A stretch of 64,000 bases of DNA, taken from contig JAHQWG010000012.1 of the NCBI GenBank assembly GCA_029856045.1, positions 1 through 64,000 of the forward strand, given 5' to 3'. Source of the stretch: Promethearchaeia archaeon. Lineage in GTDB: Archaea > Asgardarchaeota > Lokiarchaeia > Sigyniarchaeales > SOKP01. The notes beneath the pieces are model-generated. The model was not told the DNA's origin and ran no database searches. It saw only the letters and a list, made by a program, of their open reading frames with translations. The position numbers were made by a program, and so were the translations under genes. Of the stretch, positions 6,447 through 57,599 are shown piece after piece (the first letter of the stretch is position 1; every line of letters starts with the position of its first letter).

Positions 6447-6546
6447 GCAGAAGTAGTCTAGTGGTAAGGCGCCGGCCTCGAGATTCTTAGAATCAGGAGA
6501 GCCGGTGTGTGTTTCACACGCGGGGGTTCAATTCCCTCCTTCTGCG
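6447..6546 (+). tRNA. tRNA-Ser(CGA) with a 17-nt anticodon-loop intron
   Basis: The acceptor stem GCAGAAG/CTTCTGC, D stem GTCT/AGGC, T stem GGGGG/CCCTC with loop TTCAATT, and a long variable arm GTGTG-TTT-CACAC make a type II tRNA. The anticodon stem is CCGGC (6472-6476)/GCCGG (6501-6505). The loop reads CTCGAGA only if 17 nt (for example 6483-6499) are removed; the anticodon is then CGA. Discriminator G6546 fits serine. CCA is not encoded. The intron folds as GATTC-TTA-GAATC, giving a relaxed bulge-helix-bulge near the canonical 37/38 position. A GAGA sequence at both ends leaves the exact cut sites ambiguous. Confidence 0.92.
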
Positions 6547-25103: not shown

Positions 25104-27077
25104 ATGGAACAAGTTAGCATTGGAGTTTATGTTTGTGAGTGAGGGGTAAATATAGGGGGTTACGTAGATTGTGAAGCATTAAGAGACTTTGCAGAAACAC
25201 TACCAAATGTTACAGTGTCTAAAGTAAATAAATTTACATGTTCAGATCCAGGTCAAAAAATAATTAAAAATGATATTCAAGAGTTGGACTTAAAAAGAGT
25301 AGTAGTGGCGTCATGAACACCAAAAATTCACGAACCTACATACAAATCATTGTGTGCTGAGTCCGGATTAAATCCAAATTATTTTCAAATGGTAAATATA
25401 AGAGAACATTGTTCTTTTGTACATCAAGATAACAAAGAAAAAGCGACTCAAAAAGCAAAAAATTTAATTCGAGCAGGAGTAAATAGAGCACGTCTTTTAG
25501 AAACTGTGCCAATCAAAGAATTGAGCGTTGAAAAATCCGCGTTAGTTATAGGAGCTGGTATTGCTGGGATGAATGCTGCGTTAAATTTAGCAAATCATGG
25601 TATTAAGGTATATCTAGTTGAAAAAGAACCAACAATAGGCGGTAGAATGGCACAGTTAGATCGAATATTTCCAACAGATGATTGCGGAATATGAGTACTA
25701 GCACCAATTATGGTTAATGCATCAAAACATCCAAATATTGAATTAATGACATACTGTGAAGTTGTCGAATTTGGTGGATTCGCTGGCAATTATGAAATAA
25801 AAATTCTTAAAAAACCAAGATATGTTGATGAAAACAAATGTACGGGATGCGGTTTATGCACCACTAAATGTCCAATAGATGTGCCAGATGAATTTAATAG
25901 AGGAATTGGGCAGAGACATGCAATTTATATCCCATTTCCACAAGCAGTCCCGATTCTTGCTTTAATTGATAAAGAAGTATGCATTGACTGCAAACTTTGT
26001 GAAAAAGATTGTCCTGCTGAAGCAATTGATTATGAACAACAGCCAGAATATATCGATATTAAAGTGGGGGCTGTTATAATAGCAACTGGTTGGGATGAAT
26101 ATCCAATTATTGATAGTAATGAGTATGGTTATGGCATCTATCCGAATGTAATAACCCAAATAGAATTGGAAAGATTATTAAGTCCAATCGGTCCAACATA
26201 TGGTCATGTCCATAGAATTTCCGATTGTAAAACACCTAAAAATGTTGCTATGTTTCAGTGTGTTGGATCACGGAATTTAAAAGCTAATATATATTGTTCG
26301 GGTGTTTGTTGCATGGTTGCAATGAAAAATGCCCAACTTTTAAAACAAGAATATCCAGATATGGAAATCACAATTTTTTACATTGATATTAGAGCGACCG
26401 ATAAAGGGAATGAAGAGTATTATACCGCAGCGAGAAAAGCAGGAGTTAATTTCATAAAGAGTAATATTTCACGAGTGTATGAAGATCCGAAAACAAAAAA
26501 TTTGAAATTTTTGGTGCAAGATTCTTTAAGAGAATCATTGGGCATTCAAGAGAAGGAATATGATTTAATTGTTTTATCTACTGGAATCAATCCATCAAAA
26601 GGAACAAAAGAAGCCATTGCAGTATTGGGATTAGACAAAGGACCAAATGGATTTTTATCAGAAATTCATGGATGTCTCGCACCTCAAGAGACCAATAAGC
26701 GGGGTATATATATTTGTGGTTGTGCTGCAGGTCCAAAAAATATTCCTTATTCCGTATCTACTGCCTTAGCAGCTGCGAGTAAAGCATCGGCCCTAGTATT
26801 ATCAGGCAGAATAAGACAAGAATTAATGATTCCGGAAGTTGATCAGAATTTATGTATGGGATGCCACCGGTGTGAAAAATCATGTTTCTATCACGCTATT
26901 AAAGTAAATGAAGATGGTGTAGCCGAAGTTGATGAATTAAATTGTAAAGGATGTGGATTGTGTGTAACAGTCTGTCCAGCTAATGCATTAGATCTAAAAT
27001 ATTATAGGAATAATCAATTTAGAAGTGAGATATATGGAATCTGTGGAAATAATTATTCTATGGAGGATACAGTTTAA
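25104..27077 (+). CDS. hdrA: Heterodisulfide reductase subunit A with three in-frame UGA (selenocysteine)
   Basis: Reading through three TGA codons (25140-25142, 25314-25316, 25692-25694) gives a 657-residue HdrA of normal length. The UGAs encode residues 13 ('VCEUGVN'), 71 ('VASUTPKIHEP') and 197 ('DDCGIUVLAP'), all Cys or known Sec positions in HdrA. FAD-binding 'VIGAGIAG' is at 148-155; two ferredoxin motifs start at Cys246 and Cys293, 'CSGVCCM' marks the HdrA-specific cluster, and two more ferredoxin motifs end the protein. HdrA is the flavin-based electron-bifurcating core of Hdr complexes in the cytoplasm. No SECIS fits in the 38-nt gap after it, so the hairpin behind vhuD probably serves both genes. 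Confidence 0.93.
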
Positions 27078-27115
27078 ATCTAAGTAAATAATAAAAAATG
27101 AGGGGTTTAAAAAAA

Positions 27116-27541
27116 ATGGAAAGTAAAATAATAAATCAAAATCCTAAAATTATAATGTTTGCTTGCGAAAAATGAGGCTATGCAGCTGCAGATTTAACCG
27201 GAACTTGTAGAAAACAATATTCATCTGATATCTATATAATAAGAGTGAAATGTACAGGACGTGTAAGTTTGGATATAATCATAGAATCACTTCTCAATGG
27301 GGCAGATGGAGTTGCAATAGTAGGTTGACATGAGCATGAGTGTGAGTTCGGAGATGGTAATATGAATACATATAAGCATATTAAATTTTTAAAAAAACTT
27401 TTCAAACATATCGGAATATCTGAAAATAGAGTTGAATATTATTTTGTATCTGCTGCAGAGGTGGAAAATTTTCTTAATGCTACTACTGATATAATAGATA
27501 AAATAACAAAATTGCCTCCTTTACCAAAAAAATCTGAATAG
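27116..27541 (+). CDS. vhuD: VhuD/MvhD-type [2Fe-2S] electron-transfer subunit with two in-frame UGA (selenocysteine)
   Basis: Reading through TGA at 27173-27175 and 27326-27328 gives 141 residues, the family length. The codons fall at residue 20 ('ACEKUGYAAAD') and 71 ('IVGUHEHECEF'), which are cluster-ligand Cys positions of MvhD; Cys17, Cys46 and Cys76 are the remaining ligands. MvhD passes electrons from hydrogenase or another donor to HdrA, and selenocysteine forms (VhuD) are known from methanogens. GAGGGG upstream supports ATG 27116; an in-frame ATG 18 nt earlier overlaps it. The SECIS lies 28 nt past the TAG stop. Partner hydrogenase subunits are not in the window. Confidence 0.92.
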
Positions 27542-27551
27542 AATGACCTTC

Positions 27552-27612
27552 ATAAAAAAATTTTAGTTATGAAGTGACTCTCCTTGCAAGGGATCTCGGA
27601 TTATTTTATATA
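27552..27612 (+). promoter_or_regulatory. SECIS element in the 3' UTR of vhuD, eukaryote-like core
   Basis: ATGA (27569-27572) faces GGAT (27598-27601) so that U-U, G-A, A-G and A-G oppositions form the non-Watson-Crick core of eukaryotic-type SECIS. Above it GUGA and UCUC pair with UCUC and GGGA (one bulged C, one U-U mismatch), closed by the loop CUUGCAA, which contains the AA typical of eukaryotic SECIS. Below, A/U-rich flanks pair loosely. Lokiarchaeal SECIS with such intermediate features are known. The apical helix is shorter than in eukaryotes. Drawn by hand, not computed. Confidence 0.7.
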
Positions 27613-27634
27613 TAAATATTTAATTTGAAGAAAA

Positions 27635-29089
27635 ATGAAAGTGCAAGAGAATATTAATAGGAATGTTTTAAATGATGCATTAAATGTTATGAAATCATAT
27701 AGATTTAGAAATCTAATTGATTCTAAGGAAGACATTTTAAATTCAAGAATATATTCAGAAGAGGAATATTACGATTTCATTTTTACATTGTACGATGAAG
27801 ACAAATTAAAATATTCTCTCTTTAATTTTTTAAAAAATAAAGAAATTGCTTTTATTAAAGATTTAAAAGAATTTGGTAAAGAATTTAATCATGATTTAAA
27901 AAAGATCTTGAGCTTATGTTATCTTTTAAAATATGAAAATTTAATTGAAATTAAAAAAAATGAAAATACTTCAGAATTAGAAATTAATATTAAAAATAAG
28001 GATTTTATTAAAGTTAAACCAATATATGAACCTGTCAAGGTTATATTTGATTCAAAAATATGTTCTGGTTGTGGAATTTGTCAAGGAATTTGTCCTGTTA
28101 ATTGTATAAAAATTGATAACGGCGTTGGTATTATTGATGATAAGAAATGTATTAGTTGCGGGTTATGTTATACAGTTTGTCCAAGGTCATACTTACCAAT
28201 AGACATTTTAAACATATATATCTCTAATTCAAATAAATTTAAAAATCAATCAGATATTGGAGAATATTTGGAAGCATATTCTGCAAAAACAAAAGTTGAT
28301 GAGATATCCAAAATTTGCCAAGATGGTGGAATTGTAAGTTCTATTTTATATTATTTATTTGATACCCAACAAATTGATGGTGCAATTGGGGCTGGTATGA
28401 GTGAAACAATTTGGAAGCCAACACCACTTTTAATTAAAAATAAAGATGATATTAAAAAAACCTCAGGTACAAAATATGCAAATAATCCTAATTTGCAATT
28501 ATTAAATCAGCATATAGATTGTGAAAACTTGGCTGTAGTTGGAACTCCATGCATGATGCAAGCATTACTAAAATCTCATATCTATAATTTTAAAACTCCT
28601 AACCTAGATAAGATAAAATATAGAATTGGAATTTTTTGTATGGAAAGCTTTCCATATGAAAGTATTTTAGAAATTGCAAAAAGATTATCTATAAAAATTA
28701 ATGATATAAAGAAAATGGACATAAACAAAGGAAAATTCTTTTTATATTCAAGAACTGGAGAGACTAAAAATATCCCAATTAAAGAAATAACTTCATTGGC
28801 TAGAGAAGATTGCGAATATTGTTATGATTTAACATCAGAGTCTGCTGATATTTCTATAGGCTCAATTGGGTCTCCAGCAGGGTGGTCGACTGTTTTAGTC
28901 AGAACAAAAGTTGGAAAGGAAATTTTTAAGGGATTAGTCGATAAAAATTATATCGAATGGAAAGATCTTCAAGATGTTCAGCCAGGTTTAAACTTATTAT
29001 TAAAAATTGCTAAGACGAAAAGAAAGAATTGTACTGAACACATTAATAAGGTAAAAATGGAGAAAGAGTATATTCCTCAATATTATTAA
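27635..29089 (+). CDS. FrhB-like F420-dependent oxidoreductase with N-terminal extension and two 4Fe-4S motifs
   Basis: This is a 484-residue protein. Residues 1-130 form a helical, possibly winged-helix, extension not usual in FrhB. Residues 143-186 hold two ferredoxin motifs ('CSGCGICQGICP', 'CISCGLCYTVCP'). The rest is the coenzyme F420 hydrogenase/dehydrogenase beta-subunit fold: 'QDGGIVSSILYY', 'GTPCMMQALL', 'IGIFCMESF' and 'REDCEYCYDLTSE'. FrhB proteins bind FAD and F420 and join them to Fe-S chains. It follows the SECIS by about 20 nt on the same strand, so HdrA, VhuD and this protein likely form an F420-linked bifurcating complex (inference). Confidence 0.82.
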   Translation: MKVQENINRNVLNDALNVMKSYRFRNLIDSKEDILNSRIYSEEEYYDFIFTLYDEDKLKYSLFNFLKNKEIAFIKDLKEFGKEFNHDLKKILSLCYLLKYENLIEIKKNENTSELEINIKNKDFIKVKPIYEPVKVIFDSKICSGCGICQGICPVNCIKIDNGVGIIDDKKCISCGLCYTVCPRSYLPIDILNIYISNSNKFKNQSDIGEYLEAYSAKTKVDEISKICQDGGIVSSILYYLFDTQQIDGAIGAGMSETIWKPTPLLIKNKDDIKKTSGTKYANNPNLQLLNQHIDCENLAVVGTPCMMQALLKSHIYNFKTPNLDKIKYRIGIFCMESFPYESILEIAKRLSIKINDIKKMDINKGKFFLYSRTGETKNIPIKEITSLAREDCEYCYDLTSESADISIGSIGSPAGWSTVLVRTKVGKEIFKGLVDKNYIEWKDLQDVQPGLNLLLKIAKTKRKNCTEHINKVKMEKEYIPQYY

Positions 29090-29157: not shown

Positions 29158-31953
29158 TTACTGAAGTAATATCTCTTTATCACGATATATCATTCCAAGG
29201 AAAGAGACTAAATCCATTACTTTTAGTTTTAAATCTCTATTTTCTTGTAGATAGCAATTAAAATGAGTTAAACATTTTGGACACGTTACTATCAAAAATT
29301 CGGCACCTGTATCAATAGCTTCATTAATTCTTTGACCTTGCAGTAGTTTTGAATAATTACTGCAAGAGATAAAGGCAGAAACTCCACAACAATTTGCATC
29401 TTGCCTGTTATTTATCATTTCTATTAATTCAATATTTGGTAAATTATTTAATATATCACGGGGGGCATCATAAACATTACTCAATCTGCCAAGTCTGCAG
29501 GGATCGTGGTAAGTTATTTTAATTTTATCCTGATTAGATAATTTCAAATCATCTAATAATCTTTCTTTTTGTATGTATTCGCTAATGTGATATACTTCAA
29601 AATCATATTCATTATCATCTTTAAAAAAGTCTTTATATACATACTTCCACATATAGTAACCTTCAGCACAGCTGCATATTATGGTTTTTACTCCTGCATC
29701 TTTATATAATTTTACGTTATATTTTGCTAGCTTTTCGAAAGTATCAAGATCTCCAGTCCAATAACAATCATGTCCACAACATCTCTCATCAGCTAAAACC
29801 ACTGGAGTGATATTATTTAGGTTTAGAATACCAATAGTCGTTTTGGGAATATTAAGATAATCAATATTGTTATGGTAGAGTGGAAATTGACATGTTCCAT
29901 AGTAATGTTTTGGTTTTTGGGAATTATTAGATGAATCATCATTTTTTTTATAGGGGATATCACAGTTAGAACAACTATTACAATTTAAGCATCGATTTGC
30001 TTCTTGAATTGCAATTTCTTCGGTAAATTCTAGTTCAATTTCATTAAAAGTGCTACATCTTTCTTCTATAGGGATAATAGGCAGATCATTTCTCTCTTCG
30101 AATATAACTTCCTTCTTTGGGATTGGTGATGTTTTAAATTGCTCTCTTTTAAATCTGTTTTCTCCTATATCAATCCCTCTTAGATATCGATCAATAGAAA
30201 TTGCTGCTTCATATCCATTAGCTATTGCTCTAATTGCTATTCCTTGACCCTCTGTAACATCTCCTCCAGCAAAAACACCAAGGATATTTGTTTCTAAAGT
30301 AGAGTCATCGAATTGAATTTTTCCTCTTTTATTAATTATCAACTCATTTTGAGCTGCCTTTAGGAGAGAATAATCAGCTTCTTGACCTATTGCTAATATT
30401 AACACATCAAGTTGTATTTTAAATTCAGAGCCTTCGATTTGAATAGGTTTTCTCCTTCCTGAGGAATCTGGTTCGCCAAGTTTCATTCGGATACATTCTA
30501 CTTTGGAAACATTTCCTTTTTTATCTCCAATTATTCTTACGGGATTAGTTAAGAATTGAAAATCTATATTTTCTTCTTTTGCCATTTCAATTTCCTCTTC
30601 TGCTGCAGGCATTTCTTTTTCCGAACGTCTATAAATAACAATTACTTTTTTTGCACCTAACCTTACGGCCGTTCTTGCTGAGTCCATAGCAACATTTCCA
30701 CCACCCGTTACTCCAATAATTTTATCTTTAATTATGATAGGAGATTTTTTAGATTCTTGATCTGTAGGTCTGAGATATTTGAGAAATTCTATTCCTCCTA
30801 TAACATTATTCAATTCTTCACCTTCGAGTCTCATACTTCGGCTACTCTGGAGTCCTATTGATATAAAAATCGCTTTATAACCCATATTTGTTAACTTCTT
30901 GAATGTCAAATCTGGTCCTATTGGAGTATTTGTTTTTATCTCAACGCCACTTTTTTCTATGAATTCAATTTCATAATCCAAAATATCATCAGGTAATCTA
31001 TATTCTGGGATTCCAACTCTCAACATACCTCCTTTAAAGGGGCTGGCTTCAAATATTGTTGGTTTGTATCCTTTCTTTGCGAGGAAATATGCTGCTGTTA
31101 AGCCAGCGGGTCCCGAACCAATAATAGCAACTTGTTCGTTTGTTTGTTCAAATGGTTGTAATTGACTTAAGGGTTGGTTTTTTATTTCCCAATCAGCAAC
31201 AAATCTTTTTAATGCCCTGATGGCAATTGGCTTATCTATAGTATTGCGATTACAACTTAATTCACATGGATGTGTACAAATTCGTCCACATACACCTGGA
31301 AGGGGATTTCTTTCCCGTATTAAATTGAGAGATTCTTGAAATTTTCCTTCTTTAATTAATGTAATATAACCTTGAACATCAATATTTGCAGGACAAGCTT
31401 GTGTGCACGGTGATATTCCATTCATAAATGGCAAGCAACCTATAAAATATGCTATTTCTCCTTTTCTAGCAATCTTTAAATCTGTATTGTCTAAAAAGCC
31501 AATTTTATTTACTAATTCTATTTGATCATTAGCCATTAAATACGGTAAATTTGAATATAATCGACCATGAGTTGTACATTGAAGCTTTTCCTCTTGAAAT
31601 GAGTCATTTTCTGTAGCAATATTTCGAAGTTTCAAAATAATATCGAGAAAATTAACACCAACGTTATCTTTAGACATTGGACAGTATTCTGAACAAAGTC
31701 CACAAGTTAAACAACTCCAAATATTTGAATTATTAATTGCCACTTCAACTGAGTAAGTAGAAAAATCTCTAACTAATTGCCTTGGATAAAACAATCCAAA
31801 TGGAGAGAGGGGGCATATATTAATACAACGATTACAATCATAACAATAGTAAGAGGATTTTAACAACTCAGACATTTTTTCAATACCTTTATGTTCAATA
31901 TTTAAACTCGTTCCTATTGAAGTTTTACTTTTAGTTTTCATTTTAAAAATCAT
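29158..31953 (-). CDS. HdrC-HdrB-like protein with a GltD/NfnB flavoprotein nested inside the first CCG domain
   Basis: This is a 931-residue fusion. Residues 37-47 and 81-91 are two 4Fe-4S motifs (HdrC/GlpC type). 'AYFIGC' (168-173) opens a CCG domain, but it is broken by a complete NADPH-dependent GltD-like module (about 181-665: Cys183/187/222/226/230/234, FAD motif near 277, NAD(P) motif 'GVTGGGN' at 414, 'GGDVTEGQG', final 'CLNCNSCSNC'). The CCG domain resumes at about 688 with 'DERCCGHDC' and a second CCG domain carries 'DPCRLG' and 'NCCGVS'. It may couple NAD(P)H to a heterodisulfide-type or ferredoxin reaction. It is convergent with the FrhB-like gene. Confidence 0.85.
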   Translation of the reverse strand: MIFKMKTKSKTSIGTSLNIEHKGIEKMSELLKSSYYCYDCNRCINICPLSPFGLFYPRQLVRDFSTYSVEVAINNSNIWSCLTCGLCSEYCPMSKDNVGVNFLDIILKLRNIATENDSFQEEKLQCTTHGRLYSNLPYLMANDQIELVNKIGFLDNTDLKIARKGEIAYFIGCLPFMNGISPCTQACPANIDVQGYITLIKEGKFQESLNLIRERNPLPGVCGRICTHPCELSCNRNTIDKPIAIRALKRFVADWEIKNQPLSQLQPFEQTNEQVAIIGSGPAGLTAAYFLAKKGYKPTIFEASPFKGGMLRVGIPEYRLPDDILDYEIEFIEKSGVEIKTNTPIGPDLTFKKLTNMGYKAIFISIGLQSSRSMRLEGEELNNVIGGIEFLKYLRPTDQESKKSPIIIKDKIIGVTGGGNVAMDSARTAVRLGAKKVIVIYRRSEKEMPAAEEEIEMAKEENIDFQFLTNPVRIIGDKKGNVSKVECIRMKLGEPDSSGRRKPIQIEGSEFKIQLDVLILAIGQEADYSLLKAAQNELIINKRGKIQFDDSTLETNILGVFAGGDVTEGQGIAIRAIANGYEAAISIDRYLRGIDIGENRFKREQFKTSPIPKKEVIFEERNDLPIIPIEERCSTFNEIELEFTEEIAIQEANRCLNCNSCSNCDIPYKKNDDSSNNSQKPKHYYGTCQFPLYHNNIDYLNIPKTTIGILNLNNITPVVLADERCCGHDCYWTGDLDTFEKLAKYNVKLYKDAGVKTIICSCAEGYYMWKYVYKDFFKDDNEYDFEVYHISEYIQKERLLDDLKLSNQDKIKITYHDPCRLGRLSNVYDAPRDILNNLPNIELIEMINNRQDANCCGVSAFISCSNYSKLLQGQRINEAIDTGAEFLIVTCPKCLTHFNCYLQENRDLKLKVMDLVSFLGMIYRDKEILLQ

Positions 31954-56717: not shown

Positions 56718-57599
56718 TTAACTCTTCGATTTTTCAACCGAAAAAATGGATGATGCCATATAAAGGGCTCCATTTAATTCATTCTTTGGTGCTATTCTAG
56801 ATGTGTCAATTAAAATATATTTTATATCTAAATAAACAGCTCCATATGATTTTCCATTACCCAAATGGATTAATGTTCTATAAATTAAGTTTCCACTAAT
56901 TCCATTTGGTGCCAAAATTAAATTTGCTCCATTTTTGATACTATTTTCAATTAAAATCTGGTCGTGAAAAATTTCAATGTTTGGTTTCTGATTACGGAAA
57001 TATTTAACTAAATTTTCAGCATCATCTATTGTTTCATCAACACTCTTATCGCGACCAACATCAGTAAGCCTTCCACCGCTCAAGATTGAAATCTTTGGTT
57101 TAATCTTTAATTTTTCAAATAATTCTAAGGATTTCTCGATGAATTTCTTTTTTTCGTTGAAATTTTTACACTCATCAATACCAACAGGTCCAAAAAAAAA
57201 CTGCACTCCCTTTACGGTTTCGAGAAGTGCAAGCCTATAAATGTTTTTAATTTTTAATGAATCTTTGAGTAATTTCAAGAACTCAGAAGATTTAAAACTC
57301 CCTCTTACTATTGCATTTATCTTATTGTTAATTAAATATGTTATCATTTCTTTTTCTGGTTCAATACTACTAATTAATTTAATTTTTGATTGACGTGGGC
57401 TATTATTTAGCTGATATGATTTAATTTCATGTATGGCTTTTTTTTCTCCAAATAAATAAATCCAAACTTGATTTTTAATAGAAAAATCTAATGCAGTTGT
57501 AAAAATCTTAATGTTTTGATTTTTCTTTTCTCCCACACCTATTCCTATTATCAAGTCGTCAAATGAAATTTTTTGTTTTAAAATTTCAATTATTCTCAT
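56718..57599 (-). CDS. MtxX / methanogenesis marker protein 4-like
   Basis: This is a 293-residue protein related to phosphate acetyl/butyryltransferases. 'IGIGVGEKKN' at the start, 'SILSGGRLTDVGRD' and 'NGANLILAPNGISGNLIYRTLIHLGNG' blocks are the MtxX/Mmp4 signatures. In methanogens the gene tracks with methyl-coenzyme M reductase users, yet no such genes are seen here; the biochemical role is unknown even in methanogens. The assignment rests on remembered motifs and could be checked by a profile search. Confidence 0.7.
   Translation of the reverse strand: MRIIEILKQKISFDDLIIGIGVGEKKNQNIKIFTTALDFSIKNQVWIYLFGEKKAIHEIKSYQLNNSPRQSKIKLISSIEPEKEMITYLINNKINAIVRGSFKSSEFLKLLKDSLKIKNIYRLALLETVKGVQFFFGPVGIDECKNFNEKKKFIEKSLELFEKLKIKPKISILSGGRLTDVGRDKSVDETIDDAENLVKYFRNQKPNIEIFHDQILIENSIKNGANLILAPNGISGNLIYRTLIHLGNGKSYGAVYLDIKYILIDTSRIAPKNELNGALYMASSIFSVEKSKS

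Follow-up and report, generated by a model that had tools for sequence, protein, structure and literature searches.

One described relative of the gene considered here is VhuD, which a 2026 review (PMC13188914) lists as a CxxU protein with two selenocysteines (Sec), crediting multiple-Sec VhuD to Wilting et al. 1997. Two structures, PDB 9SFI and 9T1S, bring the case closer: in chain K both MvhD sites are occupied by a non-standard residue, and so is position 197 of the accompanying HdrA chain, whose residues 13 and 71 are Cys. The non-standard residues are taken here as Sec. A preliminary description of the present locus called two selenium ligands on one [2Fe-2S] cluster chemically unusual; with two-Sec VhuD and chain K of 9SFI, a two-Sec subunit of this kind has precedents.

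There are also precedents within the Asgard archaea, where adjacent hdrA and frhD genes share one eSECIS (PMC11227280). The main text of that paper presents the FrhD and HdrA selenoproteins without the number of Sec per protein and without mapping Sec sites to clusters. Finally there are the structurally characterized complexes Elp-Hdr, Mvh-Hdr, and Fdh-Hdr (8RVU, 5ODC, 7BKB), in which an ElpC/MvhD subunit is partnered by HdrA. As far as the alignments go, these ElpC/MvhD proteins have Cys at both of the sites in question.

The window analysed here is a stretch of 64,000 nucleotides from a contig (JAHQWG010000012.1, positions 1 to 64,000) of a lokiarchaeal genome assembled from metagenomic data. 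Like Methanococcales VhuD, the MvhD it encodes has CxxU and two Sec, its gene stands beside hdrA, and the partner HdrA bears Sec. The differences are that the SECIS of the window is eukaryote-like, whereas methanogen SECIS are of the GAA_A type, that the partner HdrA has three Sec rather than one, and that an frhB-like gene then follows. The resemblance to the Asgard FrhD and HdrA selenoproteins extends to the families themselves, the hdrA-frhD order, and a SECIS of the form AUGA...GA with an A-rich apical loop. With the three solved complexes the predicted lokiarchaeal complex shares the ElpC/MvhD fold and the HdrA partner, and with Elp-Hdr and Fdh-Hdr also a nearby F420 subunit of the FdhB/ElpB type.

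How much of this is new? Lokiarchaeal selenoproteins were reportedly first described by Mariotti et al. in 2016. The literature examined, whose scope excluded that report, lists HdrA with one Sec and mentions none with three or more. A two-Sec MvhD is thus largely known already; the five-Sec HdrA-MvhD pair, and the pattern centred on clusters that is set out below, are new as far as I can tell.

Frame, family, and conservation of the UGA codons

The mvhD gene occupies 27116-27541 (+). Translation confirms the earlier observation that its frame of 141 residues is broken only by TGA, at codons 20 (27173-27175, in CxxU) and 71 (27326-27328, in GU-H), and with TGA read as Sec the frame ends at TAG. 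An in-frame ATG at 27098 offers an alternative start. Residues 12-133 match the Pfam family FlpD (PF02662; E=2.4e-39, 134.6 bits against a cut-off of 22.3), and an AF2 model (pLDDT 79) has the fold of solved MvhD, with Z of 18.1-18.5 against 7bkb_F, 5odh_D, 5odc_D, and 8rvu_F and superposition on these four chains at rmsd 1.8-2.3 over 127-134 residues. The protein had been called VhuD/MvhD. The family match and the fold uphold the second half of that name, but the first is loose: the NCBIfam model for methanogen VhuD (NF045873) gives 129.1 bits, below its cut-off of 215, so the protein is placed in the MvhD/FlpD family rather than under the methanogen model.

Just upstream, as the preliminary description had it, lies a gene for a seleno-HdrA (25104-27077, +), whose end is separated from the start of mvhD by 38 nt. 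It encodes 657 residues, with in-frame UGA read as Sec at codons 13 (25140-25142, VCEU-G), 71 (25314-25316, VASU-TP), and 197 (25692-25694, DDCGIU). Residues 1-646 match the HdrA of 5odc (E=4.8e-221); against NCBIfam NF040770 the protein scores 833 bits, which is below the model's cut-off. Downstream of mvhD, at 27632-29089 (+), is a gene for an FrhB/FdhB-like F420-dependent subunit of 485 amino acids with two [4Fe-4S] motifs (PF04432, E=1.7e-43; NF006807, above cut-off), likely the electron-input partner. The order is thus hdrA-mvhD-frhB, and in orthologous loci too the frhB-like gene lies 3' of mvhD. Of an HdrA-based bifurcating complex, the locus encodes an HdrA with its N-terminal FeS domain, FAD domain, and inserted and C-terminal ferredoxin domains, together with MvhD.

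Convergent to this group of genes is another (29158-31953, -) encoding 931 residues, in which an HdrD-like part with Fer4 and CCG domains is fused to a GltD-like NAD(P)H oxidoreductase; its product is a possible functional partner. Elsewhere in the window, at 6447-6546 (+), a 100-nt Rfam tRNA match is without an ARAGORN call and is perhaps an intron-bearing tRNA.

If the TGAs were true stops, in a decayed gene, through errors of assembly, or in a gene giving two short products, matters would look much as they do to ordinary gene calling, which stops at codon 20 of mvhD and recovers from hdrA only a fragment of 455 amino acids. The comparison of relatives makes this hardly credible. It covers MvhD and HdrA from the window's own genome and from 40 further loci of relatives, 51 MvhD and 44 HdrA sequences altogether. 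TGA in MvhD is restricted to columns 20 and 71, where only Sec or Cys is found (44 U and 7 C at the first, 37 U and 14 C at the second). In HdrA, TGA occurs at columns 13, 46, 71, 197, 296, and 299, each otherwise Cys, with position 160 the sole outlier; the three sites of the window have U in 35, 15, and 41 of the 44 sequences and C in 9, 29, and 3. Two random TGAs would fall on the five invariant Cys columns of MvhD with p about 0.001, and three would fall on the 26 columns of HdrA (of 657) that have Cys/Sec in 90% or more of the 44 sequences, across all cluster domains, with p about 6e-5. Independent MAGs, from different families too, share these TGAs, in every case at a conserved Cys; frame and motifs downstream of them are conserved, and a SECIS and Sec machinery are present. 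Over the HdrA codons 1-196 dN/dS is 0.20-0.22; MvhD has too few changes to judge.

The preliminary description held that Cys codons at these sites in close strains, together with the lack of a SECIS downstream, would tell against a selenoprotein. What is found is the reverse. Of the named genomes the two closest, Candidatus Lokiarchaeota CSMAG_2237 and 6H3_1 (94-95% identical), keep all five TGAs, and a SECIS lies at 27543-27577. Across 195 Asgard genomes, MvhD with two TGAs is the rule in the window's family and turns up in many other families, and forms with a single TGA occur too. The genome of the window itself encodes 11 MvhD homologues, four with two TGAs and seven with none.

The two named genomes show one peculiarity each. 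In the HdrA of 6H3_1 (L064/L105) an extra in-frame TGA is found at codon 160, where all others have Leu, Ile, Val, or Ser; it probably reflects an error in sequencing or a lesion of recent origin. In CSMAG_2237 (L104/L065) the 3' end of the mvhD frame, which in the window is closed by TAG, runs into TGA codons immediately ahead of the SECIS; presumably UGA so close to the SECIS is read as a stop.

Could UGA stand for some other amino acid, through a changed code or general read-through? Its rarity as a terminator would fit, since TGA ends just one of the 50 non-overlapping ORFs in the window that reach 120 amino acids. But relatives carry Cys at the UGA columns and never Trp, the genome encodes a tRNA-Sec adjoining SepSecS, and a SECIS stands directly behind mvhD, all of which makes this reading extremely unlikely. 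The genome also encodes EFSec and SelD, all four above cut-off, and SelD itself carries one TGA and is Sec-containing. A PSTK-like kinase is present (E=5.7e-43), below the cut-off of its model. UGA at the Cys of homologues, a SECIS in the 3' UTR, and genes for Sec synthesis and insertion are what one looks for in an archaeal selenoprotein, and all are found for mvhD. That mvhD is a selenoprotein gene with two Sec I regard as practically certain.

A SECIS element behind mvhD and its reach

One nucleotide after the stop codon of mvhD begins a eukaryote-like SECIS (27543-27577, +), consisting of AUGA, a stem of nine positions, the loop AAAAAUUUUAG, and GA. A SECIS covariance model gives this site 49.1 bits, against 16.6 for the next best in the window. 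Thermodynamic folding of the region by itself is not significant (z -0.74), and for that reason the case is built on covariation. Among 27 SECIS elements, compensatory change is seen at 9/9 stem pairs, and the covariation score is 1.02, compared with 0.25 after shuffling and at most 0.27 when the partner is slid. Stem cells are paired in 93.8% of instances versus 55.5% after shuffling, a figure biased upward in that the elements were chosen partly for hairpin formation; covariation and the conserved loop are less affected. A sequence pattern that ignores the stem has two matches in the genome of 3.34 Mb, both directly 3' of mvhD genes with two TGAs. Searched genome-wide, the model also finds sites outside its training set: one follows a VhuU-like peptide, and two more follow other genes that contain UGA.

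The 3' end of the apical loop keeps UAG in nearly all of the elements (27543-27577 and 26 related), with A23 and G24 invariant. No mention of this loop end was found for Asgard SECIS. A lokiarchaeal SECIS placed in Methanococcus maripaludis reportedly did not work there (PMC11881835).

If this element serves hdrA as well as mvhD, its reach is long. The distances from UGA to SECIS are 2400, 2226, and 1848 nt for the three codons of hdrA and 367 and 214 nt for the two of mvhD. Published archaeal distances span 70-1500 nt, and the genes concerned have one or two Sec each (PMC9499178). One might suppose from the 2400 nt that separate the first UGA from the SECIS that the UGAs of hdrA are recoded by a signal of their own, within the gene or 5' of it, and that the SECIS serves mvhD only. 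The SECIS model, however, finds no second site near hdrA, and sharing of one element by hdrA and frhD is what has been reported in Asgard archaea (PMC11227280), so a separate signal is improbable. It is highly likely that the SECIS behind mvhD is common to both genes. In that event hdrA and mvhD would be co-transcribed, and the one SECIS would recode all five UGAs.

A second hdrA in the same genome (L024 in G000:C44; also L088) specifies Sec at 13, 71, and 197 plus 296 in the inserted ferredoxin domain. It adjoins a two-Sec mvhD whose SECIS fails to match the type I model.

Three other selenoprotein candidates of the genome came to light. Behind a hydrogenase large subunit is a short VhuU-like peptide, RCYDCULSCAAH, with a SECIS at 57353-57387 (-) of G000:C35 (L145). 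A protein of 154 residues with two adjacent UGA (CUU, or HADUU in some paralogues) has a SECIS directly behind its gene (L146:2454-2915; 26953-27414, +, of G000:C32). Homologues are found in 27 of 39 relatives, nearly all keeping two or three TGAs, and neither Pfam nor NCBIfam has a match; it looks like an undescribed family of Sec-Sec selenoproteins. The third is a single-transmembrane protein of 49 residues ending in PPPNGGGGUC (L144:2362-2508; 2362-2508, +, of G000:C10), with a SECIS about 35 nt downstream and, in three sister genomes, the tail GGGUC or GGGUG. Its membrane helix, Gly-rich tail, and near-terminal Sec resemble eukaryotic SELENOK and SELENOS in layout only.

Clusters around the bifurcating flavin

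What do the Sec residues do? It is plausible from the sequence that positions 20 and 71 of MvhD are ligand positions of its [2Fe-2S] cluster. There are five invariant Cys/Sec columns in MvhD (17, 20, 46, 71, and 76), and only four can occupy ligand places at once, which leaves one column without a permanent ligand role. This surplus leaves room for a different assignment, in which just one Sec is a permanent selenium ligand and the other is a second-sphere residue or a redox-active selenol, possibly an exchange ligand. Cys replaces Sec71 more often than Sec20 (14 vs 7 of 51 sequences; four changes vs one on an HdrA tree), as such an assignment might lead one to expect. Yet both columns are invariant as Cys/Sec, even among the relatives with Cys only, and in the AF2 models residues 20 and 71 each appear directly after a parallel strand, like the conserved Cys of the N-terminal domain of HdrA (whose model is poor, pLDDT 51.6). 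A single permanent selenium ligand therefore seems rather unlikely, and probably both Sec20 and Sec71 are ligands of the cluster, to judge from the pattern of conservation.

Given the like placing of Sec in the two domains, it is tempting to think of common descent. Comparing the profile of MvhD with that of the HdrA N-terminal domain gives a probability of 2.3 (E 0.021), and the MvhD model matches the N-terminal part of 8rvy_A with Z 6.8, whereas unrelated lumazine synthases reach 7-8.5. Since both matches are weak, the similarity is noted and homology is not claimed.

The HdrA sites can be placed with the help of solved structures. The N-terminal FeS cluster takes one of its ligands, Cys197, from the second HdrA protomer of the dimer (PMC9012536). 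The HdrA of the window aligns to that of 5ODC with identical numbering at 197, which puts Sec197 at the cross-dimer ligand position. The N-terminal domain must supply the remaining ligands, and on that ground I infer them to be 13, 46, and 71, the invariant Cys/Sec of the domain, with Cys11 a further candidate. Positions 296 and 299 lie within the CxxCxxCxxxC motif of the inserted ferredoxin domain. In all 44 HdrA, Sec is absent from the four cluster Cys of the TrxR domain (386-403) and from the eight Cys of the C-terminal ferredoxin domain. Sec thus occurs in 6 of 13 columns on the side of the N-terminal domain, 197, and the inserted domain, and in none of the 12 remaining columns (Fisher p about 0.015, for columns that are not independent and a grouping picked after the data were seen). 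The sites differ in how often they switch between Cys and Sec on the HdrA tree: at least eight times at 71, three at 13, two at 46, and once at 197. In two relatives, L096 (genome G013) and L100 (G005), sites 13, 46, 71, and 197 are all Sec.

L096 has Sec at 299 also, making five in its HdrA and seven in its HdrA-MvhD pair.

The preliminary description imagined five Sec lining one electron path. There are indeed five in the adjacent pair, but they are better seen as lying around two separate clusters: the [2Fe-2S] of MvhD feeds FAD while the N-terminal cluster of HdrA lies on the low-potential branch (PMC9012536, PMC6019823, PMC12350162). The low-potential electron passes through HA3, HA5, and HA6 (PMC6019823). 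In Elp-Hdr, HA3 is the shuttle cluster, and the mobile arm is made up of the donor module with the N- and C-terminal domains of HdrA (PMC12350162). That HA3 is the cluster of the N-terminal domain is my reading; the wording of PMC12350162 puts it at the C terminus. Most likely, then, the five Sec surround two clusters flanking the bifurcating FAD and do not form one continuous wire.

I propose that the FrhB-like protein would take electrons from reduced F420 and hand them to the [2Fe-2S] of MvhD, which would exchange them with the bifurcating FAD of HdrA. The route would run from F420H2 through the FrhB-like protein, the ferredoxin domain of HdrA, and the [2Fe-2S] of MvhD to the FAD, or the reverse in vivo. 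In other systems, F420-oxidising FdhB/ElpB is paired with MvhD/ElpC and HdrA (PMC12350162). Sec20 and Sec71 of MvhD would be selenolate ligands of the [2Fe-2S]; Sec13 and Sec71 of HdrA, with Sec197 of the partner protomer, would ligate the N-terminal [4Fe-4S] of the low-potential, ferredoxin-side branch. Selenium would in this way be carried by the two clusters next to FAD, the one preceding it on the donor side and the one following it on the low-potential side, both of which would move relative to the flavin. The benefit may be faster electron exchange, easier release of a ligand during movement of the arm, or resistance to oxidation. I am confident of the account in outline: Sec20 and Sec71 replace two conserved Cys in an MvhD-type [2Fe-2S] subunit, which belongs to a lokiarchaeal complex built on HdrA that bifurcates or confurcates electrons.

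On a broader claim I am evenly divided. It is that Asgard archaea have repeatedly placed Sec on the ligands of two FeS clusters flanking FAD, the [2Fe-2S] of MvhD and the N-terminal shuttle of HdrA, possibly amounting in two relatives to an all-selenolate [4Fe-4S] split across the HdrA dimer, of whose four sites the window has three, and that one SECIS would direct five recodings over 2.4 kb and two genes. With one SECIS behind two cistrons, the locus is well suited to gauging the reach of the Asgard recoding signal. The frequent switches between Cys and Sec at HdrA 71 (at least eight, on one tree) are natural swaps of a single atom at a likely cluster ligand. Structural papers still call the mechanism of electron transfer over more than 20 Å at the bifurcating flavin unknown. 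If the wider pattern holds, selenium would have a specific role there, namely to tune the clusters that have to approach and leave the flavin, or to make them looser.
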